Of a DNA stretch of 64,000 nt, positions 2,012 through 41,675 are shown in pieces (the first letter of the stretch is position 1; the number at the start of each line of letters is the position of its first letter). Under the pieces are notes generated by a model, which was not told where the DNA came from, searched no databases, and saw nothing but the letters and a program-made list of their open reading frames with translations. Source of the stretch: Blastococcus tunisiensis (lineage in GTDB: Bacteria > Actinomycetota > Actinomycetes > Mycobacteriales > Geodermatophilaceae); assembly GCF_900112815.1 (NCBI RefSeq), contig NZ_FOND01000001.1, positions 466,816 to 530,815 of the forward strand, read 5' to 3'. Position numbers and translations under genes: made by a program.

Positions 2012-3952
2012 GTGCGCCGAGTCTTTATGTCGAGGCCGCTCCTGCTGATTGTCGGCGCCCTCATTCTGGGCGCCATGGTCTGGCTGATTCGGGGCGTTGA
2101 AATCCGGGGCCAGGAGCGCGCCGACGCCCAGGGCGCGACGACCGCGGAGGTGATCGCCGCAACGGTCGTGCATCCCCGTCTCGGCGCGAGTGATCTCGCC
2201 CAGGGGCAGTTCTCGGCTGAGGACCTTGCCGGGCTGCGTGATGACGTCGATAGGCTGCGTGCTGACGGACAGCTGCTGGGGCTGGGCGTGTGGAGGCTGG
2301 ACGGCATGCCTCTGTTCGACAGCTCTCCGGCCTCGGGTGCGCTGCGGGTGTCTGACCGCGACGTCGTGCGTGCGCGGCAGGGTGACTCGTGGACGGAATC
2401 CGGGGGCGCTGCGGACGGGCACGCTCAGCTGCGGGTCTTTATTCCCTCACGGACCGCGGAGGAGGGTGCCGGTTCGGATGGGTCGCTGGTTCAGGTGGTG
2501 ATCCCGCACGGTGACCTCACCGCGGCCGCGCAGGACAGGCTGCTGCGTCAGCAGACGTCGGTCATTGTGATCTTCGGGCTGCTCATCGCCGGTCTGGTGT
2601 GGTTGCGACACCGCCTCCTGCGGCGCGAGCGGCACGCCCGCCACGACCCGCTCACGGGCCTGCTGAACCGCCGTGCCCTGTACGAGGACGCCCGCGGCCT
2701 GCTGGCCAAGGCCAGCATCAAGCGCCCGCTCGCGTTTCTCCTGCTCGACCTGAGCGAATTCAAGTCCGTCAACGACACTCTCGGTCACACCGCCGGGGAC
2801 CTGCTGCTGCAGCGCGTGGCGGCCGTTCTGCAGGCAGGGGTGCGGGCGGAGGATCTCGTGGTCCGCCTCGGGGGCGACGAGTTCGGTGTTCTGCTGACCC
2901 ACCTTCCCGACACCGCCGCCGCGCAGGACCGGGCCGAGCAGATCCTCCGCCGGCTGCGGGAGGCCCCGTTCACCGTGGAGGGTGTCGACCTTGCCGTCGA
3001 CGCCAGCATCGGGGTTGCGCTCGCCCCCGAGCACGGCAGGACCCTGCCCGAGCTGCTGCAGCGCGCCGACGTGGCTATGTACCAGGCCAAGCGCAGCCGC
3101 CGCGGCACCGTCGTCTATGACCCGAAGACCGACGAGCACACCGTCGGGCAGCTGGCCATGGTCACCGACCTGCGTCGAGCCCTCGACAACGAGGAGTTCG
3201 TGCTGCACTACCAGCCCAAGGTCTCGCTCCGGGACATGCAGATCACCAGCGTGGAGGCGCTGGTGCGCTGGCAGCACCCGACCCGGGGCCTGCTGCCGCC
3301 CGGGGAGTTCCTCCCGGTTCTGGAACGCTGCGGACTGATGCGGCCGCTGACCCGCTGGGTTCTCCGCGAGGCCATCCAGCAGGCCGCCAGCTGGCGCCGG
3401 GCCGGCATGCCGCTGCAGGTGGCTGTCAACATCAGTCCCCGCAGTCTCGTGCAGGACGACCTGCCGGCCCGGGTCCTGGCCGCGCTTCTGGCAGCCGAGC
3501 TGCCGGCGGCGCTGCTGCAGCTGGAGATCACCGAGACGGCGGTGATGACCAATCCCGAACGCGCCGCGTTCGTGCTGACACAGCTGCAATCCCGGGGCGT
3601 CGAGGTCGCCATCGACGACTTCGGCGCCGGCTACACCAGTCTCGCGTTTCTCCGCATCCTGCCCATCACCGCGCTGAAGATCGACCGCAGTCTGATCAAG
3701 GACATGCTCGACCATGACGAGGACGAGGCGGTCACTTCGGCCGTGACTGACCTCGCCCACCGGCTGGGCTTCAGCGTGATCGCCGAAGGCGTCGAAACCG
3801 AGGCGCTGCTCGACCGGCTTGCCGCGCTGGGCTGCGACCAGGTGCAGGGGTACGTGATCAGTGCACCGCTGCCTCCTGCCGCCCTCGAAGGGTGGCTCGC
3901 CGACTGGCAGTCCCGCAGCAGCCCCTCCGTCGAGAACGCTGCGGCCTCATAA
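2012..3952 (+). CDS. Membrane GGDEF-EAL cyclic-di-GMP turnover protein
   Basis: Bifunctional diguanylate cyclase/phosphodiesterase family protein (646 aa). Order: transmembrane helix near the N-terminus (LLLIVGALILGAMVWLI), extracytoplasmic segment of about 150 residues, second transmembrane helix (VIVIFGLLIAGLVWL), GGDEF domain with intact signature at residue 287 (RLGGDEFGVLL), then an EAL domain with EAL at 415, DDFGAGYTSL, KIDRSLI and EGVET. Both active sites look complete, so it could make or degrade c-di-GMP. I place the start at GTG 2012 because GGAGGGGG ends 6 bases upstream; an in-frame GTG at 1985 lacks this. A membrane-protein gene follows after 49 bases with its own ribosome binding site. 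It is cargo on the mobile element. Confidence 0.93.
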   Translation: MRRVFMSRPLLLIVGALILGAMVWLIRGVEIRGQERADAQGATTAEVIAATVVHPRLGASDLAQGQFSAEDLAGLRDDVDRLRADGQLLGLGVWRLDGMPLFDSSPASGALRVSDRDVVRARQGDSWTESGGAADGHAQLRVFIPSRTAEEGAGSDGSLVQVVIPHGDLTAAAQDRLLRQQTSVIVIFGLLIAGLVWLRHRLLRRERHARHDPLTGLLNRRALYEDARGLLAKASIKRPLAFLLLDLSEFKSVNDTLGHTAGDLLLQRVAAVLQAGVRAEDLVVRLGGDEFGVLLTHLPDTAAAQDRAEQILRRLREAPFTVEGVDLAVDASIGVALAPEHGRTLPELLQRADVAMYQAKRSRRGTVVYDPKTDEHTVGQLAMVTDLRRALDNEEFVLHYQPKVSLRDMQITSVEALVRWQHPTRGLLPPGEFLPVLERCGLMRPLTRWVLREAIQQAASWRRAGMPLQVAVNISPRSLVQDDLPARVLAALLAAELPAALLQLEITETAVMTNPERAAFVLTQLQSRGVEVAIDDFGAGYTSLAFLRILPITALKIDRSLIKDMLDHDEDEAVTSAVTDLAHRLGFSVIAEGVETEALLDRLAALGCDQVQGYVISAPLPPAALEGWLADWQSRSSPSVENAAAS

Positions 3953-4001
3953 GCGCCTCATCAACAATCTGCGTCTCGCGCGCGGGAAGGAGGGGTTCAA
4001 G

Positions 4002-4949
4002 GTGTCACTTCGAATGGCCGACATGCTCGGAGTGAAGCTGCGTAGGCGCCTGACACCCCGCGTCGGGGCTGCGGCCCGTCATGTCGCGCATCGCGGCCGC
4101 GATGCATGGCAGTCGCGCAAGCCGATCTGGGTTCCGAAGCTTCGGCGTGGAGGCAAGGTGGTGGCGGTAGCGGCGGCGTTGGCCGCGCTGATCGCCCTCG
4201 GCTTTAAGGGGCAGCTCAGCAGGGAGCTGGCTGCCTTCTCCCCACTCGCCTCCGGATCCGTGGCGGAGACGGAAGGCGAGAGTGCATTGGTTCCCCTACC
4301 GTCCCCATGGGATGTCGTCATCGACAAGGTCCGAGACGTCGCTCCGGCTGTCTCGCGGCCGCACATCGGATTTGCGCCATTGGGCGATGTGTCGCTCACC
4401 CCCGAGTCCGGCGCGGACGCCGGTGGGGCCTCATCGGCAACGGCGGCGGGTCAGAGCGGTCAAGCCCATGTCATGAGCACACCGTCCGCTCTTGCCGTGG
4501 CGGTGGCGGTGGCAGTCGGGGTGATGGTCGTGCGGCGCATGCGCCGGGAAGGCAAGGACTCGACTTCCGACGGTGACGGCGATCCCGCCGCGGAACCATC
4601 GAACGTGGATACGCCGACGCGGGAGCCGAGAAACGCGGCGACAAGCGAGAGCCGGCCACCTGCCAGTGGACAACAACAGGCACCCCGGCCACCAATCGAC
4701 CCACGTCGCGGAAAGAATGGCGACGGCCAAGCTCGGCCGGTGCCCGTGCCCGCAGACCACACCAAGCAAGTAGTCGCATCGGAGACGACGCGCGAGGAGC
4801 TCGGCAGCGCCGCAACCGCTGCCGGTGAGGAAAGCGCCCGCAGCGACACCTCACCGAGCAGCCGCGCTCAGCCGACGCCTCCAGTAACAGGGGCGCGTGC
4901 GGAACACTCGACCAGCCGGGTTGTGCTGTTTACGGCAACAAAGTGGTAG
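4002..4949 (+). CDS. Two-helix membrane protein, unknown function
   Basis: Protein of 315 aa, not recognised. The N-terminal 45 residues are strongly basic. A hydrophobic segment follows (VVAVAAALAALIALGF), then about 100 residues of linker, a second very Ala/Val-rich helix (ALAVAVAVAVGVMVV) and a long polar, disordered-looking C-terminal tail rich in Glu, Pro and Thr. Start GTG 4002 is chosen because GAAGGAGGGG lies 7 bases upstream. It ends in tandem TAG stops. It is probably co-transcribed with the GGDEF-EAL gene 49 bases upstream and might be a partner of that sensor, which is only an inference from position. Confidence 0.65.
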   Translation: MSLRMADMLGVKLRRRLTPRVGAAARHVAHRGRDAWQSRKPIWVPKLRRGGKVVAVAAALAALIALGFKGQLSRELAAFSPLASGSVAETEGESALVPLPSPWDVVIDKVRDVAPAVSRPHIGFAPLGDVSLTPESGADAGGASSATAAGQSGQAHVMSTPSALAVAVAVAVGVMVVRRMRREGKDSTSDGDGDPAAEPSNVDTPTREPRNAATSESRPPASGQQQAPRPPIDPRRGKNGDGQARPVPVPADHTKQVVASETTREELGSAATAAGEESARSDTSPSSRAQPTPPVTGARAEHSTSRVVLFTATKW

Positions 4950-5268: not shown

Positions 5269-5604
5269 GTGATTGTCAGCTGCAAGGCGAGGACGCCTGC
5301 CACCGACCTGCAAGTAGCCACCGGCGTGTCCGACGTCCTCGACCGTCGGGCCGCTTCGAAGCGACCTCCGACCACACTGGTCGTCTCCGATGCCATCGCC
5401 CTCGGAATCGCGGGACTTTTCAGCAGCGCAACCCCTTCCGGTCGCGTGCTCGATCACTTCTACAGGCGCGGCTCGATAGACGGCACTGACCTAATCGAAG
5501 CGGCACGAGTCGAGCAAGGCTTCGCATCCCCGGAAGGGCATGCGGCACTGCACTGCCTCATCGGGTGGGCGCGGAGTCGCTTGAATGGTCAACTCAAAGT
5601 CTAG
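5269..5604 (+). CDS. Hypothetical protein (111 aa)
   Basis: Not recognised. The middle of the protein is hydrophobic (TLVVSDAIALGIAGLFS) and the C-terminal half looks like helices with mixed charge (GTDLIEAARVEQGFASPEGHAALHCLIGWARSRL). The GTG start at 5269 has a purine-rich CCAGGGAG 5 bases upstream. It stops with TAG. It stands alone between two gene-free stretches upstream of the relaxase, so it is probably a mobile-element gene. Confidence 0.5.
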   Translation: MIVSCKARTPATDLQVATGVSDVLDRRAASKRPPTTLVVSDAIALGIAGLFSSATPSGRVLDHFYRRGSIDGTDLIEAARVEQGFASPEGHAALHCLIGWARSRLNGQLKV

Positions 5605-5920: not shown

Positions 5921-8900
5921 GTGGCGTTGAGAATGCATGGCGGGATGAAGGTCTACGCCGGTGCGCCGGCGGCTGCCCGGCAGTACGTGGAGGCCGACCG
6001 GGGCCGGGCGGATGACTACTACCTCACCGAGGGCGCCGGCGTCGCCCGCCGGTTCGGCGTCACCCAGGGGCGGGTGACTGAGTTGGCGCCGCTGACCGGT
6101 GCCGCCTACGAGACGTGGGTGGCCGGCTGTGACCCGGGCACCGGGGAGCCGCGGGGGCAGCTGCGTGGCGACGGGCATGCGGTGCGGTTCGTCGAGGTGG
6201 TGGTCAACGGTCCGAAGACGTGGTCGCTGGCGGCCGCGCTGCATCCGGACATCGCGCTGGCGTACGACGCGGCCCAGGCCCGGGCGGCCGAGCAGATCAT
6301 CGGCTGGCTCGGGCACCACGCCACCACCAGGGTCGGTCCCCGTGGCGGGCAGGTGCAGGTGCCGGTCGAGGTGGCCGAGGCGGTGACGGTGGCGCACTAC
6401 ACGTCGCGGGCCGGGGACCCGCACCGCCATCTGCACCTGCAAATCAATGCCCGCGTGTTCGCGGCCGGAAAATGGCGCGGACTGCACACCGTCGGCGTCC
6501 GCGATTCACTCGCTGCAATCAACGGTATCGGACACGCCGCGGTCGCCTGCGACCCGCAATTCCGCACCGCGCTCGCCGCCCACGGGTACGCATTGGATGC
6601 AACCGGAGAAGTGCACGAGCTCGCCCACTACGTCGGTCCCTTCAGCGCACGAACCGCGCAGATCGCCCGGAACATCGACACCTACGAACGAGAATGGGCC
6701 GAGGCGCATCCCGGCGAACGCGCCGGACCGGCGTTGCGCCGGGCCTGGGACGCGCGAGCGTGGGCAGCGGGCCGCCCGGACAAGGTGCTGCCCCAGCCGG
6801 GGGAGGACCTCACCGCAGGGTGGCTGACCGAGCTGGTGGCCCTGGGTTACCTCGACCGGAATGTTGCGGTCGGCCTGACACCCACCCCGGTCGGCGGCCT
6901 GGACCGGGAGCAGGCGGTGGAGCGGGTGCTGGCCCGGCTGGGCGCCGCCCGCTCGGCGTGGAACGCCGCCGACGTGCGCGGGGAGGTCGAACAGCTGCTC
7001 GCCGCCGCTGGCATCGTCACCGACCCGGCGGTGCGCACTGAACTCGCCGAAGACCTCACCGCCCGCACAATGGACCGCTGCGTGCCGCTGCTGGACCGCG
7101 GCGCGGTGCCCGCGCACATCCGAGCCTGGACCTCGACCCCGGTGCTCGCCATCGAGGTCGACCTCACCGCCCGTCTCGCCTCCCGCGCCACCGGGCGCCC
7201 GGCCGGCGTCCCGGACACCGACCCGACACCGCCCGTCGACGTCGCAGCCGGTTCCGCGCGGCTGGATGCCGGACAGGCCGCGGCGGTCGCCGCGCTCGCC
7301 GGCCCGCGGCGCCTGGTCGTGATCGAGGGCGCGGCCGGCGCCGGCAAGACCACCACGCTGGCCGCCGCCAGGAACGCGCTCGCCGAGCAGGGGCGCCGGC
7401 TGGTGGTCGTGACCCCGACGCTGAAGGCGGCCCAGGTCGTCGCCGCGGAGGTCGGCGCGGTCGCCGGCTCGGCGGCCCGGCTCGCCTTTGACCACGGCTG
7501 GCGCTGGAATGATGACGGCGCGTGGACCCGCCTCGCCGTGGGCCACACCGACCCGGTCACCGGCCGTGCGTATGCCGGACCCGCGGAGGGGGCGCGGCTG
7601 CGGGCCGGTGACCTGCTCGTCTGCGACGAGGCGGGCATGCTGGATCAGGACACCGCCCGGGCCCTGCTGACGATCGCCGACGAGTGCCAGGTGCACGTCG
7701 CCCTGCTCGGTGACCGGCATCAGCTGCCGGCGGTCGGACGCGGTGGCGTCCTCGACCTCGCCGCGGCCCAGGTCGAACCGGCCGGGCACCTGACCCTGGT
7801 CGGGGTGCACCGTTTCACCCGCACCGACGCCACCGGCCGCACGACACCGGACACCGACTACGCCGAGCTGACCCTGGCGATACGCGCCGGCGAGAAGCCC
7901 GGGACGGTGTTCGACGCGCTGCTGGCCCGCGGGCAGATCCGGCTGCATCCCGACGCGCAGGCGCTGCGGGCGGCGCTCGCCGCGGACGCGGCCGACGGCT
8001 ACACCGCGGGGGAGGACGTGGCCGTGGTGGTCGCCACACGTGAGCAGGCCGCCACCTTCAATGCCGCCATCCGGGACCGGCTCGTCACCGATGGCCGGGT
8101 CGACGACCGGCGCGTGGTCGTCACCGGGGTCGGGGAGCGGATCGGCGTCGGCGACCGGATCGCCACCCGCCGCAACGACCGCCACCTGCAGGTCGCCAAC
8201 CGCGACACCTGGACCGTCACCGGCGTCGACAGGGACGGCGGGCTGCTCGTCACCCCCGACGGCACACCGCATGTCACCCCCACCGGCGGCGTGCTCGCCT
8301 CTGTCACCCCCGCCGTCACCCCGGCCGGGACAGGGGCGCGGCGGGTGCTGCCCGCCCACTACGTCACCGCGCACGTGGAACTGGCCTACGCAACCACCGC
8401 GCACGGCACCCAAGGCGACACCGTGACCGCCGCGCACCTGGTGGTCGGCGAGGACACCGGCGCGGCCGCCGCCTACGTCGGAATGACCCGCGGCCGTACC
8501 GCCAACACCGCACACCTCGTGGCGACCGACCCTGCCGAGGCGCGGGAGCAGTGGCTCGCGGTCTTCGCCCGCGACCGCGCCGACCTCGGCCCCGCGCACG
8601 CCGCCCGGCTGGCCGCCGCCGAGGCCGCCCGTTACGCCCGGCAGCGCCCGCTGGAGCAGGCGCTCGCCGACCTGCACTCCGCGTGGACGGCCGAGCAACG
8701 CTGCCTGGACCGGCTCGCCTCCGACCTGCCGCGCCGGGACGCCCTGCGCGAGATCGTCGCGCTCGGCTCCGCCCACGCCGACCGGGCCGCCGCGCTGACG
8801 GATGCCTATCGGCAGACGGGGACCGACGCCGGGTACGCCACGGCGCGCGCTGACGCCAGCGGCGCGGTCGTCACCGCCGAGATCGACCGGATCCGCGACA

Positions 8901-9607
8901 CGCTGCTCGGCAGCTGGGACACCGGGCGTGACGCCGCCCGCGACGCCGCGCAGGTCGTGCTCGACGGCCCCGGACGGCTCCGGCTTCGGCGGGCGGCGGT
9001 GAACCGGGCTGGCGAGCAGCTGTTCGACTGGGCGGACGCCTGGCGGCCCTACCTACCGGCCATGCCCACAGACCCGCAGCAGATCGCGCGCCTGGCCGAC
9101 CGGTCCGACGACCGACCGCGGCTGTGGACGGCCCTCGACTCCTACGCCCGCCACCACGCCGAACACGCCCATCCTCAGCACGCTCAGCTGCGCGCGACCG
9201 CAGCCACCGCACAGGAGGCCCACCGGCACGCCGGGGCCGCGGTGGCCGACGCGCGCCGTCAGCACGAGGACCGGCTCGCCCACTTCGGACCTCTCGCCTG
9301 GACCCTCGACCCGGCGGAGCGGCTGGCCGACGCCGACCGGGACATCGCCGTCACCCGCACAGAACTGGCCGCCGTTCGCGCTCGCATCGCGCGCCTGACG
9401 GCTGAGCCGGCCCTCCTCGTCCAGCCGACCGACTGCCTCGCCCGAGAGCGGGACACCTGGCGGGCCCGCCACGACTCCGAGCTCGCCACCACCCGGACAC
9501 CTGCCGCCCCGTCGGCGCCACCGCAGATGGTCGTCCGGCCGCCGCGCCCCGAGGACGTCCGACAGCTCGCACTACATCTGGACGCGGGCCTGGGGATACC
9601 TCGGTGA
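5921..9607 (+). CDS. MobF (TrwC/TraA-like) conjugative relaxase-helicase
   Basis: Protein of 1228 aa that would nick one strand at the origin of transfer and unwind it for conjugation. The N-terminal TrwC-type relaxase domain (about residues 10-300) has candidate nucleophile tyrosines at 22 and 33/34 (RADDYYLTEG) and the metal-binding three-His motif in GDPHRHLHLQ (about 166-175). The RecD-like helicase part has Walker A GAAGAGKTTT near residue 470, Walker B CDEAG near 568, and a C-terminal motif VGMTRGRT. The last 350 residues are Ala/Arg-rich and probably helical. The GTG at 5921 is the longest start; in-frame ATGs follow at 5933 and 5945. No coupling protein or replication gene is in the window, so the rest of the transfer system lies to the left or is missing. 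Confidence 0.93.
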   Translation: MALRMHGGMKVYAGAPAAARQYVEADRGRADDYYLTEGAGVARRFGVTQGRVTELAPLTGAAYETWVAGCDPGTGEPRGQLRGDGHAVRFVEVVVNGPKTWSLAAALHPDIALAYDAAQARAAEQIIGWLGHHATTRVGPRGGQVQVPVEVAEAVTVAHYTSRAGDPHRHLHLQINARVFAAGKWRGLHTVGVRDSLAAINGIGHAAVACDPQFRTALAAHGYALDATGEVHELAHYVGPFSARTAQIARNIDTYEREWAEAHPGERAGPALRRAWDARAWAAGRPDKVLPQPGEDLTAGWLTELVALGYLDRNVAVGLTPTPVGGLDREQAVERVLARLGAARSAWNAADVRGEVEQLLAAAGIVTDPAVRTELAEDLTARTMDRCVPLLDRGAVPAHIRAWTSTPVLAIEVDLTARLASRATGRPAGVPDTDPTPPVDVAAGSARLDAGQAAAVAALAGPRRLVVIEGAAGAGKTTTLAAARNALAEQGRRLVVVTPTLKAAQVVAAEVGAVAGSAARLAFDHGWRWNDDGAWTRLAVGHTDPVTGRAYAGPAEGARLRAGDLLVCDEAGMLDQDTARALLTIADECQVHVALLGDRHQLPAVGRGGVLDLAAAQVEPAGHLTLVGVHRFTRTDATGRTTPDTDYAELTLAIRAGEKPGTVFDALLARGQIRLHPDAQALRAALAADAADGYTAGEDVAVVVATREQAATFNAAIRDRLVTDGRVDDRRVVVTGVGERIGVGDRIATRRNDRHLQVANRDTWTVTGVDRDGGLLVTPDGTPHVTPTGGVLASVTPAVTPAGTGARRVLPAHYVTAHVELAYATTAHGTQGDTVTAAHLVVGEDTGAAAAYVGMTRGRTANTAHLVATDPAEAREQWLAVFARDRADLGPAHAARLAAAEAARYARQRPLEQALADLHSAWTAEQRCLDRLASDLPRRDALREIVALGSAHADRAAALTDAYRQTGTDAGYATARADASGAVVTAEIDRIRDTLLGSWDTGRDAARDAAQVVLDGPGRLRLRRAAVNRAGEQLFDWADAWRPYLPAMPTDPQQIARLADRSDDRPRLWTALDSYARHHAEHAHPQHAQLRATAATAQEAHRHAGAAVADARRQHEDRLAHFGPLAWTLDPAERLADADRDIAVTRTELAAVRARIARLTAEPALLVQPTDCLARERDTWRARHDSELATTRTPAAPSAPPQMVVRPPRPEDVRQLALHLDAGLGIPR

Positions 9608-9727: not shown

Positions 9728-10855
9728 GTGGCGTCGATCTCGAGGCGGCCTGACGGCACATACCGTCCGCGGTACCGGGACGAGAACGGCAAGGAGCACG
9801 CCCGCCACTTCAAACGCAAGGTCGACGCCCAGCGGTGGCTCGACGAACAGACCGCGGCGATGGTGCGCGGCGACTGGGTCGACCCCCGCTCCGGCCGCGT
9901 CACCTTCGCCGAATACGCCGAACAGTGGCGGACGACGCAAGTCGTCCGCCCGACGACTGAACTTGCCTACGAGCGGCTGTTGCGACGCAATGTCTACCCG
10001 CGGCTGGGCGACCGCCCTATCGCGGCGATCAAGCCGAGCGAGATTCAAAGCCTGGTTGCGTGGCTCACCGTGGCCGCCGAGGACCATCCGGCACTAGCCC
10101 CACGGACGGTGCGCGTGACTCTCAGCGTCACCTCCGCGGTGTTCAAGTCGGCCGTCCGCGATCGCCGGCTTGTTGCCAATCCGTGTGTCGGCGTTCGACT
10201 CCCCGAGGTGCACAAGGCCCGCGTCCAGCCGCTGCTGACCACTTCGGTGACCGCACTACGAGAGGCCATGCCGCCCCGCTGGTGCGCCGCCGTGGTGCTC
10301 GGCGCCGGTACGGGAGTGCGTCAAGGTGAGATGCTCGGACTCGCCGTCGACCGTATCGATTTCCTGCGCCGGCAGATGCTGGTCGACCGGCAGTTGATCA
10401 ACCTGCCTGGCCGTGCGCCGTACCTGGCCCCGGTGAAGACAGCCGCGTCCGTACGGACGATTCCGTTGCCGCAGACCGTGGTCGATGCTCTCGCAGCACA
10501 CCTGGCCGCATTCCCGGCCGGGCGAGACGGCCTGGTGTTCGTAGGCGACGACGGGCGGCCGATGCTGCGGTCGGCTTGGTCGGGCAAGGTCTGGCGTCCC
10601 GCGGTAGTCACAGCCGGCTTGGATACGTCCGTCACCTTCCATACGTTGCGCCACTACTACGCCAGCCTGTTGATCCGGCACGGAGAATCGGTGAAGACGG
10701 TCCAGGCTCGTCTGGGGCACTCCTCGGCGGCCCAGACACTGGACGTGTACTCGCACCTCTGGCCGGACTCGGACGACCGGACACGGGACGCCGTCGACAC
10801 GGTTCTGGGCGCTGTTGCGGACTCTCTGCGGACCGCCGAGAGCGAGGAGACCTAA
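9728..10855 (+). CDS. Tyrosine recombinase (site-specific integrase)
   Basis: Phage-type integrase of 375 aa. It has an N-terminal arm-binding region (ISRRPDGTYRPRYRDENGKEH), a SAM-like core-binding domain (about 60-160), and a catalytic domain with Arg198 (GTGVRQGEMLGL), the HxxR motif in FHTLRHYY near 305-308, LGHSS, and nucleophile Tyr341 (LDVYSHLW). All catalytic positions are present, so it should be active. Start is GTG 9728 with AAGGAGG 9 bases upstream. It is the last gene of the element, as is usual when the attachment site lies just beyond the integrase. I do not see a tRNA gene or a duplicated att core in the 300 bases that follow. Confidence 0.95.
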   Translation: MASISRRPDGTYRPRYRDENGKEHARHFKRKVDAQRWLDEQTAAMVRGDWVDPRSGRVTFAEYAEQWRTTQVVRPTTELAYERLLRRNVYPRLGDRPIAAIKPSEIQSLVAWLTVAAEDHPALAPRTVRVTLSVTSAVFKSAVRDRRLVANPCVGVRLPEVHKARVQPLLTTSVTALREAMPPRWCAAVVLGAGTGVRQGEMLGLAVDRIDFLRRQMLVDRQLINLPGRAPYLAPVKTAASVRTIPLPQTVVDALAAHLAAFPAGRDGLVFVGDDGRPMLRSAWSGKVWRPAVVTAGLDTSVTFHTLRHYYASLLIRHGESVKTVQARLGHSSAAQTLDVYSHLWPDSDDRTRDAVDTVLGAVADSLRTAESEET

Positions 10856-11153: not shown

Positions 11154-11690
11154 ATGGAGCTGGAATCGATCCTGGATCCGACCGGCGCCGCGGACCTGAG
11201 CGCGGACACCACGCTCGCCCCGCGCCTGACCACGCTGCGCGGCGCCACCCTGGGGCTGCTGGACAACGGCAAGCCCAACGGCGCCGCGCTGCTGACCGAG
11301 CTCGGGAACGTCCTCAAGGAGCGCTACGCGGTCCGGGACGTCCTCATGTTCACCAAGCCGTACTTCGGTACGCCGGTCGAACCAACCCAGACCCAGCGGA
11401 TCTTCGAGGAGTGCGACTTCGCCATCACGGCGATCGGCGATTAGGGCTCCTGCAGCGCGGCCAGTCTGGCCGACGGAATCCTCCTGGAGCGGCAGGGCCT
11501 GCCCGCCGTCTCCATCTGCACCGAAGCCTTCAAGATCCCGGCGGACGCCATGGCGCGGACGTACGGCTTCCCCGGCTTCCAGTACGCGCTGGTGCCGCAC
11601 CCGGTGGCCAGCCTCGACGCCGAAGGGATCAGACGACGAGTGGAGGAGATCCTGCCGCGGGTCCTGCAGATCCTGGGGGTCGAGGGGTGA
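11154..11690 (+). CDS. UGSC-family selenoprotein with in-frame TAG (Sec) at codon 97
   Basis: The reading frame runs from ATG 11154 to TGA 11688-11690 and is interrupted only by TAG at 11442-11444. The residues around it are AIGD-[TAG]-GSCSAAS: the stop sits exactly at the U of the UGSC motif that names this family, where homologues carry selenocysteine or cysteine. Downstream sequence stays in frame and family-like (ILLERQGLPAVSICTEAF, then VPHP). The product is 178 aa if TAG is read as selenocysteine, and 96 aa if not. A hairpin with a GU-containing loop starts 13 bases after the TAG. The gene end overlaps the next start (GTGA), so the two are translationally coupled. The family's reaction is unknown; U-x-x-C suggests redox or thiol chemistry. 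UAG-encoded selenocysteine is, from memory, established in Geodermatophilus and Blastococcus. The tRNA and SelA/SelB/SelD genes are not in the window. The alternative is a nonsense mutation, which seems unlikely given its exact position. Confidence 0.85.
11458..11472 (+). promoter_or_regulatory. SECIS-like hairpin downstream of the TAG codon
   Basis: CGGCC-AGUCU-GGCCG forms a 5-bp GC stem with a 5-base loop. It begins 13 bases after the TAG, and its loop is 18 bases after. Bacterial SECIS elements are short stem-loops at this distance with a G-U step at the start of the loop (GGUCU in the Escherichia coli fdhF element), recognised by SelB. The bases beyond the stem do not pair continuously, so the lower stem is unclear. 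Confidence 0.6.
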
Positions 11691-12763: not shown

Positions 12764-13029
12764 CCACCTCCGAGCCCGCGTCCCGGTCCGACGCCGAGCT
12801 GGCCGAGGCGCTCGCCGGCGCCCGCACGATGCTGGAGAGCGACGGCTTCGAGGCCGGCTGGGACGTCGACCCGGCCGGCGGCGTGCACTTCACCGTGCGC
12901 CCGGGCTCGGCCGAGTGCCAGGACTGCCTCGTGCCCAAGCCGGTGATGGCCGCCATCATCGGGGACGCCCTGTCCGGGACCCCGTGGTCGCTGGCCGAGA
13001 TCACCCTGCCCGGCGACGCGGCCGAGTGA
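12760..13029 (+). CDS. Small CxxC protein, NifU C-terminal-like
   Basis: Protein of 89 aa. The layout is a helix (DAELAEALAGARTML), a beta-rich section (GWDVDPAGGVHFTVRPG), then AECQDCL followed by a helix (VPKPVMAAIIGDAL). This arrangement, with a CxxC between a strand and a helix, resembles the NifU C-terminal domain that carries iron-sulfur clusters or acts as a thioredoxin-like scaffold. The match is by eye and the family call is tentative. ATG at 12760 overlaps the stop of A1 and its own stop overlaps the next GTG, so it is fully embedded in the operon. A small dithiol protein next to a selenoprotein could be its electron donor, which is an inference. Confidence 0.65.
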   Translation: MTTSEPASRSDAELAEALAGARTMLESDGFEAGWDVDPAGGVHFTVRPGSAECQDCLVPKPVMAAIIGDALSGTPWSLAEITLPGDAAE

Positions 13030-14735
13030 CCCTCTCCTCGGCTCCCGGTCGGGTGGACGCGGCGGGGGAGCGGGGCCCCGTCCGGGACAACATCGCCTCG
13101 CTGCTGGAGGCGGTCGCCGATGCGGTGACGGCCCTCGACCCCGCGCGCAGCGTCCTGGTGCACGGCGACCTCCGCCGGACGTGGCGGGAGTTCGACGACC
13201 GCGCGTCCCGGCTCGCCGGCCACCTGGCCCGGGCCGGGACGGGACCGGGCGACCGGGTCGGGATCGGGCTGCACAACTCGCCGGAGTACCTGGAGAGCCT
13301 GCTCGCCGTCCTGAAGCTCCGGGCCGTCCCGGTCAACGTCAACTACCGCTACCGGGAGGCCGAGCTCGAGCAGGTCCTCGGGCTCGCGGACGTCCGCGCG
13401 CTGATCGCCGACGCGACGCTGGCCGACCGGATCCGGGCCGTGGCGCCCCGGGTGCCGCGGTTGCGGTCCGTCGTGCTCGCCGGCGAGCAGGACGCGCCGT
13501 CCGCCGCGCGCGACGGGGTCGCCGGCTACGAGCAGGCGCTGGCTGCGGCCGATCCGCTGCCCCGGCGGGAGCGCTCGCCCGACGACCAGATCCTGATGCT
13601 CACCGGCGGCACGACCGGGGCACCGAAAGGCGTCGTCTGGGACAACGGCGGGGTCTGCGGGATCGTCTCGTCGGCCTACCGGCGGGCGGACGTGCCGGTG
13701 CCGGCCGACAGGGCCGAGGTGGTGGCCGCCGCCGAGGCCGCCGTCCGCGACGGCAGCGCCCCGGTGCTGCTCCCGGCCTCACCGCTCATGCACGGCACCG
13801 GGTTCTTCTTCAGCCTCGGCAACCTGCTGCGGGGCGGCACCGTGGTCACCCTGCCCCAGCGGTCCCTGGACCCGCGGGCGCTCTGGTCGGCGGTGGCCGA
13901 GCACGGCGTGGTGGAACTGGCCATCGTCGGCGACGCCTTTGCGGTGCCGCTGCTGGCCGAGCTGGAACGGGCGGCCGTGGACGGACAGCCCTACGACCTC
14001 TCCGCGCTGCGCCGCGTGGTCAGCTCGGGCGTCCGGTGGAGCGCGGAGAACAAGCGCCGCCTGCTGCGCGCCGGCCGGTTCACCGTCCGGGACACCATCG
14101 CCTCCACCGAGGGCGGGCCCTACGGCGTCTCCCTCGCGGGGCCCGACCCGGAGTCGGTGCCGACCGAGTTCGTCCTGCCGCCGAACGCCCGGGTGATCGG
14201 CCCGGACGGCACGGACGTGGTGCCCGGGTCCGGGCAGGTCGGCATGCTGGCCAGCACCGGGCCGCTCCCGCTGGGCTACCTCGACGACCCGGAACTCACC
14301 GCCGCGGTCTTCCGGACCATCGACGGCGTCCGGTACGCCGTTCCCGGGGACGCCGCGATGGTCGACACCGACGGCACACTGCGCTTCCTGGGCCGCCAGT
14401 CGGGCGTCATCAACACCGGCGGGGAGAAGGTGTTCGCCGAGGAGGTGGAGCTGGCCCTCGTCGAGCACCCGGGCGTGGCCGAGGCCGTCGTCGTCGGCGT
14501 CCCCGACCCGCGCTGGGGGAGCCGGGTGACGGCCTTCGTGGTGCCGTCGGACGGCGCCGAGGTGACGGCGGGGGAGCTCGCCGACCACCTGGGGGAGCGG
14601 CTGGCGGACTACAAGCGGCCGCGCAGCATCTCGGTCGTGCGCGACCTGCGGCGGACGGCGTCGGGGAAGGTGGACCGCGGCTGGGCCCAGCGGGAGGCCG
14701 AGCAGGTCTTCTCCGCACCCGCCGGCAACGGCTGA
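13026..14735 (+). CDS. AMP-forming acyl-CoA synthetase/ligase
   Basis: ANL-superfamily enzyme of 569 aa that would activate a carboxylic acid with ATP and CoA. Visible motifs: P-loop LTGGTTGAPKGVV near residue 198, the A5-like region DTIASTEGG, A7/A8 region GDAAMVDTDGTLRFLGR followed by INTGGEKVFAEEVE, and the C-terminal catalytic lysine context RTASGKVDRG. The full length is present. It starts at GTG 13026 overlapping the previous stop. As last gene of the selenoprotein operon it suggests that the pathway substrate or product is an organic acid taken on as a CoA thioester. Its acid specificity cannot be told. Confidence 0.9.
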   Translation: MTLSSAPGRVDAAGERGPVRDNIASLLEAVADAVTALDPARSVLVHGDLRRTWREFDDRASRLAGHLARAGTGPGDRVGIGLHNSPEYLESLLAVLKLRAVPVNVNYRYREAELEQVLGLADVRALIADATLADRIRAVAPRVPRLRSVVLAGEQDAPSAARDGVAGYEQALAAADPLPRRERSPDDQILMLTGGTTGAPKGVVWDNGGVCGIVSSAYRRADVPVPADRAEVVAAAEAAVRDGSAPVLLPASPLMHGTGFFFSLGNLLRGGTVVTLPQRSLDPRALWSAVAEHGVVELAIVGDAFAVPLLAELERAAVDGQPYDLSALRRVVSSGVRWSAENKRRLLRAGRFTVRDTIASTEGGPYGVSLAGPDPESVPTEFVLPPNARVIGPDGTDVVPGSGQVGMLASTGPLPLGYLDDPELTAAVFRTIDGVRYAVPGDAAMVDTDGTLRFLGRQSGVINTGGEKVFAEEVELALVEHPGVAEAVVVGVPDPRWGSRVTAFVVPSDGAEVTAGELADHLGERLADYKRPRSISVVRDLRRTASGKVDRGWAQREAEQVFSAPAGNG

Positions 14736-41516: not shown

Positions 41517-41675
41517 GTGAACCTCAAGAAGGTCGTCACCTGGTTGGTCGTGGCATTCGTCGTCTTCTACGTCATCCAGGCCCCCGAGCAGTCCGCCGAA
41601 CTGGTCCGCAACGCGGGGGAGGCGCTGGGCGACGCGGCCTCCTCCCTCGCGCAGTTCGTCGGTTCGCTGGTCTAG
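41517..41675 (+). CDS. Small single-helix membrane protein (52 aa)
   Basis: The first 23 residues form a membrane helix (VVTWLVVAFVVFYVIQAP) and the rest an amphipathic helix. GTG 41517 has TGGAGGTGG upstream. It ends in TAG and is followed 12 bases later by the PH-domain gene, so the two are probably co-transcribed. TAG here seems to be an ordinary stop: the sequence after it (CCCGCTGATCGCG) continues without homology and the next start follows at once. Confidence 0.7.
   Translation: MNLKKVVTWLVVAFVVFYVIQAPEQSAELVRNAGEALGDAASSLAQFVGSLV

Follow-up and report, generated by a model that had tools for sequence, protein, structure and literature searches.

A UGSC-family gene interrupted by one TAG

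The window, a 64,000-nucleotide stretch analysed as a whole, carries on its forward strand a frame of the UGSC family in which the only internal stop is a TAG lying between AIGD and GSC, at the place of the U of the UGSC motif (Table 1). Translation bears out the first-pass annotation, which had described this codon as the single interruption of the frame and had expected standard annotation to report a 96-aa protein; under translation table 11, the ORF indeed runs from 11154 to 11444 and encodes 96 aa. With the TAG translated as a residue, the frame matches the Pfam profile UGSC (PF24696) over residues 6-175 (E 7e-61, 205.7 bits) and the NCBIfam profile NF041046 at 153.5 bits, above its curated cut-off of 125, so that both profile score and motif (UGSC/CGSC) place it in the family. 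Its nearest named relative is found in Geodermatophilus sabuli DSM 46844. Residues C97, G98, S99 and C100 (U read as C) are invariant in 45 of 45 UGSC rows, all of them preselected for that motif. The GC content of the three codon positions is 0.66/0.46/0.94 on the 5' side of the TAG and 0.72/0.49/0.91 on the 3' side, a coding-like pattern that is similar in both parts. The openness of the 82 codons 3' of the TAG is not evidence in itself, because at this GC the probability of its arising by chance is about 0.30; the coding status of this part is argued from homology and codon pattern.

Table 1. Features of the UGSC locus and further genes of the same genome with TAG at a Sec-like position
Feature	Position in window	Strand	Remarks
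UGSC-family gene, predicted selenoprotein	11154..11690	+	178 codons plus TGA stop (11688-11690)
In-frame TAG, codon 97, predicted selenocysteine codon	11442..11444	+	homologue column: TAG, TGA or Cys codon
SECIS-like hairpin	11458..11472	+	6 pairs (11458-11463 with 11467-11472), 3-base loop GUC
AGT serine codon in hairpin	11463..11465	+	final base of the stem and GU of the loop
Partner gene B, 358 aa	11687..12763	+	GTG start overlaps UGSC stop
Small ORF C, 89 aa	12760..13029	+	overlaps end of B; similar ORF in 3/28 loci searched
AMP-binding (acyl-CoA ligase type) gene	12915..14735, true start not settled	+	downstream of UGSC
Second UGSC			motif ALAD-U-GSC
FdhA, two genes			motif ENQARI-U-HS
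AhpC-like protein			motif GDW-U-PYC

Gene B is a nearly constant companion, with a homologue in 27 of the 28 UGSC loci searched, whether of TAG, TGA or Cys type (no match in L113); B matches nothing in Pfam, NCBIfam or the PDB sequences, and its motifs include WTDGLPVVP and a nearly constant ENEEESPW. Relatives of the AMP-binding gene lie downstream of UGSC in four Geodermatophilus loci (L009-L012; 65-70% identity) and in the genome's own second UGSC locus (49% identity). Also downstream, on the other strand, are an IclR-type regulator and two aconitase X parts, and together with the AMP-binding ligase these neighbours make a role of UGSC in organic-acid breakdown plausible. Just upstream of the UGSC gene sit ORF 5921-9607, which from its reading we take to resemble a TraA-type relaxase/helicase, and ORF 9728-10855, presumably integrase-like, and the two suggest an integrated mobile element beside the gene.

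Among the 45 UGSC members, 24 weakly match TIGR01917 (glycine reductase selenoprotein B; best 1.9e-5) and 20 weakly match PrdB (D-proline reductase; best 0.00039); the protein of the window matches neither at E up to 1. An AlphaFold2 model of the UGSC protein (pLDDT 89.6, pTM 0.84) predicts a Rossmann-like fold with the Sec just before helix 98-113. Because of the distant likeness to GrdB/PrdB and the constancy of the neighbouring gene B, UGSC and B may perhaps form a two-protein reductase or lyase, in which Sec would serve as the nucleophile attacking the substrate.

Decoding machinery, hairpin and the probable double meaning of UAG

The source genome (5,036,776 bases in 43 contigs) is that of a soil bacterium of the Geodermatophilaceae, placed by GTDB in a genus group (g1) other than that of G. 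sabuli. It harbors one tRNA-Sec, detected with RF01852 at 69.1 bits (cut-off 47), which fits the tRNA-Sec model end to end and has the anticodon CUA; the remaining six RF01852 matches are tRNA-Ser, -Tyr, -Leu and -Met, and ARAGORN, applied to these seven tRNA-Sec-like matches, assigns a CTA anticodon to the tRNA-Sec alone. The tRNA-Sec with a CUA anticodon that the first-pass annotation had proposed to look for is therefore present, in one locus with selA, selB and selD, each of which scores above its NCBIfam curated cut-off. In this locus, selA starts 87 bases past the tRNA-Sec and overlaps selB, while selD lies 716 bases before the tRNA-Sec on the opposite strand, with an ORF without family match in between. 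The genome thus holds all four parts of a bacterial Sec-decoding system, with an anticodon that matches the TAG at Sec positions as in a UAG-Sec variant of the code. Since RF1 (prfA) is also present, UAG can still terminate translation.

Directly 3' of the TAG lies a hairpin; counted from the first base of the TAG, its loop has G at base 23 and U at base 24. In a gapless alignment from the stop codon of 45 Sec-type (42 TAG, 3 TGA) and 39 Cys-type UGSC genes, the six pairs are complete in all 45 of the former, around a GUN loop, and in three of the 39 latter; the AGT serine codon at codon +7 is found in 45/45 and 1/39, respectively, whereas eight long genes of this genome use AGT for one Ser codon out of 216. 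Compensatory changes affect three of the six pairs and all cells are paired (24 distinct sequences), pairing in slid controls drops to 18-51%, and RNAalifold recovers the same helix. None of 500 shuffles reached the percentage paired or the covariation score of the hairpin; 343 of them reached its counts of both-side-changed pairs and of pair types, so that two of the five measures are not above chance. Within the window (both strands), such a hairpin occurs at 43 of 127,880 positions overall, and of 279 TAG triplets only that at 11442 has one at this spacing. Rfam gives no match for the hairpin, and plain folding of the surrounding 65 bases gives no exceptional stability at this GC (z -0.43). 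The support for the hairpin is comparative: it is a conserved G/U-loop structure that is mostly missing in Cys homologues. Conservation of the protein sequence could explain part of this pattern; most Cys homologues, though, do not keep the hairpin. One Cys-type UGSC gene (L226, in G362) has the AGT codon in the loop and four of the six pairs, perhaps as the vestige of an earlier Sec gene, perhaps by chance.

Searches of the genome with three families (PF24696, PF00384 and PF00578) yielded four further genes with TAG at Sec-like positions (Table 1) and no TGA-interrupted match. In both FdhA genes, GGTCTG occupies the loop position and a hairpin folds there; that of the AhpC-like gene has a GUC loop and is located two bases further on than in UGSC. 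Across 108 family genomes searched, the AhpC-like gene is present in 29, in 27 of which it has one TAG in a continuous frame; 12 more genomes gave only weak matches to other AhpC-type genes. A hairpin follows the first TAG in 27 of 27, and the terminator, at a matching C-terminal place, is TAG in 14 (including the genome of the window) and TGA in 13. In the genome's own copy, the stretch after the terminator does fold, but not into this GU-loop hairpin. A gene in which UAG would stand once for Sec, with a hairpin, and once for stop supports decoding by context, a view that the first-pass annotation had taken from three other genes of the window ending in TAG; this codon does end ORFs 3861-4949 and 5269-5604, and the third, a candidate frame of 52 codons, likewise ends in TAG, at 41673-41675, if it is GTG-started. 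In two genera (L295 in G104 and L296 in G029), the AhpC-like gene changes frame at a common point lying after the Sec codon and before the hairpin loop, with the next ~185 codons open and conserved; shared decay, an assembly artefact or a frameshift used at the Sec site may be the cause.

Codon, anticodon and descent in the family

In the 112 genomes of the Geodermatophilaceae (as drawn by GTDB), a search with PF24696 gave 95 matches in 54 genomes, of which 23 have no inside stop and 72 exactly one, always TAG. Across 84 distinct UGSC genes taken from retrieved loci (12 matches without the motif being excluded), the U column holds TAG in 42, TGA in three, TGC in 38 and TGT in one, the TGA-type genes belonging to Plantactinospora mayteni (L013), a Pseudonocardiaceae MAG (L014) and a genome of the same class (G197). 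The alignment called for by the first-pass annotation hence places TAG in the U column of relatives and TGA or a Cys codon elsewhere, and where that annotation had weighed random stops in close relatives against its own reading, the stop in relatives is instead TAG, at the matching position. Among 394 genomes sampled from the class, UGSC occurs in 23, with an inside TAG in two family members, an inside TGA in G197 and no inside stop beyond these.

The anticodon follows a similar division. tRNA-Sec(CUA) is present in 101 of the 112 family genomes, and all 48 genomes with a TAG-type UGSC fall within these 101; the two named Geodermatophilus genomes with TAG-type UGSC have CUA, and the genomes of all three TGA-type genes have UCA. 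Seven family genomes have a UCA-only tRNA-Sec (G066, G068, G069, G070, G072, G073 and G074); they belong to genera g5-g7 and are fragmentary, with 190 to 550 contigs each, so that their placing and purity need care. These MAG data may contain contamination. No tRNA-Sec was found in four (G067, G071, G097 and G098, 72-82% complete). Three molybdopterin-family matches of the UCA genomes are interrupted by TGA (G074, G070 and G072, the last crossing frames) and none by TAG; in G074 and G072, the residue after the TGA is His, the same as after the Sec of the FdhA of the window's own genome, and GGTCTG stands at the loop position. Codon and anticodon thus correspond to each other on either side of a boundary inside the GTDB-drawn family. 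One of the UCA-only genomes (L200, G066:C15) also contains a UGSC relative with the motif GDCAGCCSC that adjoins a second, diverged UGSC-like protein without a Sec/Cys site.

A tree of the 84 UGSC proteins, built with the U column masked by a quick method that leaves many forks open, distributes the TAG genes over four separate groups, one with two deep branches, and TGA genes from non-family genomes are interspersed with the TAG genes in two of these groups. In the group of the window's gene, two TGA rows stand among TAG rows with supports of 91-94, under the starred level, a pattern that would imply gene transfer across the code boundary with a change of codon but is no more than suggestive. 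One Geodermatophilus genome (G058) has two tRNA-Sec genes, CUA with selD/selA/selB and UCA (81.8 bits), at loci L195 (G058:C17, 1173-1263, - strand) and L196 (G058:C11). Its tRNA-Sec(UCA) is near ORFs that look, by eye, like putative transposases and near a lower-GC stretch; the first 19 kb of its contig (69 kb) are free of sel genes, and assembly contamination is a possible origin; the UGSC gene and one molybdopterin-family gene of this genome carry TAG. It is a tentative and rather unlikely scenario that, with MAG genera g5-g7 already branched off, the Geodermatophilaceae underwent a single shift of Sec from UGA to UAG, that selenoprotein genes then crossed between UGA and UAG hosts by transfer with the Sec codon changed to suit the host, and that G058, reading both UAG and UGA as Sec today, would show the intermediate. 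As the family has genomes on either side of the codon switch, the order in which tRNA, codon and hairpin changed is testable.

Probable selenocysteine at UAG: alternatives and known systems

TAG 11442 is almost certainly a selenocysteine codon, decoded via tRNA-Sec(CUA), SelA/SelD, SelB and the hairpin. The gene, the tRNA, the sel genes and the hairpin are all legible in the DNA, and SelB binding, Sec insertion and competition with RF1 would follow by analogy with the known bacterial mechanism. SelA, with selenophosphate from SelD, would convert Ser-tRNA-Sec(CUA) into Sec-tRNA-Sec, which SelB, bound to the hairpin 14 to 28 bases past the codon, would deliver to the ribosome at UAG in competition with RF1; a UAG without such a hairpin would lead to termination as usual. 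The predicted UGSC protein is 178 aa long, and its Sec immediately precedes a helix of the Rossmann-like fold. For UAG, 75Se labelling or mass spectrometry was reportedly described by Mukai et al. in 2016.

That standard annotation yields a truncated ORF would also be expected of a pseudogene or a sequencing error, the TAG being a nonsense mutation or a wrong base where Cys or TGA once stood. This explanation is refuted by the comparative data and is extremely improbable: 42 of the 84 distinct UGSC genes have TAG in this column, spread over many genomes and several separate subfamilies, all 72 interrupted family matches have a single stop that is TAG, the codon pattern persists 3' of it, and a tRNA-Sec with the matching anticodon CUA is at hand. 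The chance that UAG is read as pyrrolysine is practically negligible. ARAGORN names the tRNA gene tRNA-Pyl (cta), but this tRNA fits the tRNA-Sec model throughout its length and shares a locus with selA, selB and selD, homologues have Cys or TGA at the site, and the only PylS_Cterm match in the genome scores 22.9 bits against a cut-off of 178, in a search that also gave matches in 13 of 14 control genomes, one of them above cut-off.

A subtler alternative accepts the tRNA but has UAG read in practice as Ser or Cys, for instance from Ser-tRNA-Sec left unconverted under scarce selenium, so that the protein would usually be without selenium. Serine insertion before SelA acts is conceivable, and the site is Cys in many homologues; against this stand the full sel set of the genome and the restriction of the CTA anticodon, among its seven tRNA-Sec-like matches, to tRNA-Sec, which make such a reading very unlikely. 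Selenocysteine at TAG 11442 implies a stop codon with two meanings in one cell, Sec ahead of the hairpin and stop in its absence, with both combined in one message in the AhpC-like gene. It also matters for annotation, in which UAG-Sec genes are cut short or missed and the tRNA is called tRNA-Pyl by ARAGORN.

A UGSC-containing selenoprotein has been described from the GOS set in the available text of PMC2398784. The protein of the window matches this family (PF24696, NF041046) over nearly its full length with U at the motif; in comparison with that description, its Sec codon is TAG instead of TGA and its model (pLDDT 89.6) is Rossmann-like, whereas a Trx-like fold had been expected.

Some bacteria use UAG for Sec, according to the available text of PMC10778597 and PMC8124441. 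For the Geodermatophilaceae, that of PMC5330540 describes tRNA-Sec(CUA), UAG-Sec formate dehydrogenases and UGSC proteins (citing Mukai 2016) and a Sec-TAG AhpC in Blastococcus saxobsidens; the first-pass annotation, which had credited the 2016 work with UAG-Sec in Geodermatophilus and Blastococcus, agrees with this account. The present case shares the family, the tRNA-Sec(CUA) and UAG-Sec in UGSC and formate dehydrogenase, and brings an additional genome and gene; beyond the available text of PMC5330540 go the 112-genome survey, the Cys control for the hairpin, the AhpC-like UAG as both Sec and stop, and the UGA-using genera. In the available text of the open-licence papers searched, including PMC13188914, PMC2398784 and PMC7609411, no family survey, UGA-using members, genome with both tRNA-Sec or gene with UAG as Sec and stop was found. 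The interpretation of TAG as UAG-selenocysteine is supported at the level of sequence. Since UAG-Sec in UGSC proteins of the family is already published, this gene would be a further, well-documented example.

The SECIS of Escherichia coli fdhF is a short hairpin just past the codon, with G at base 23 and U at base 24 in its loop and the letters GGTCTG at the loop position. These letters are common to the FdhA genes of the window's genome and to the TGA-type FdhA of G072 and G074. By comparison with fdhF, the codon here is UAG rather than UGA, the loop of the AhpC-like gene lies two bases further on, and the UGSC genes combine a three-base loop with a perfect 6-bp stem.
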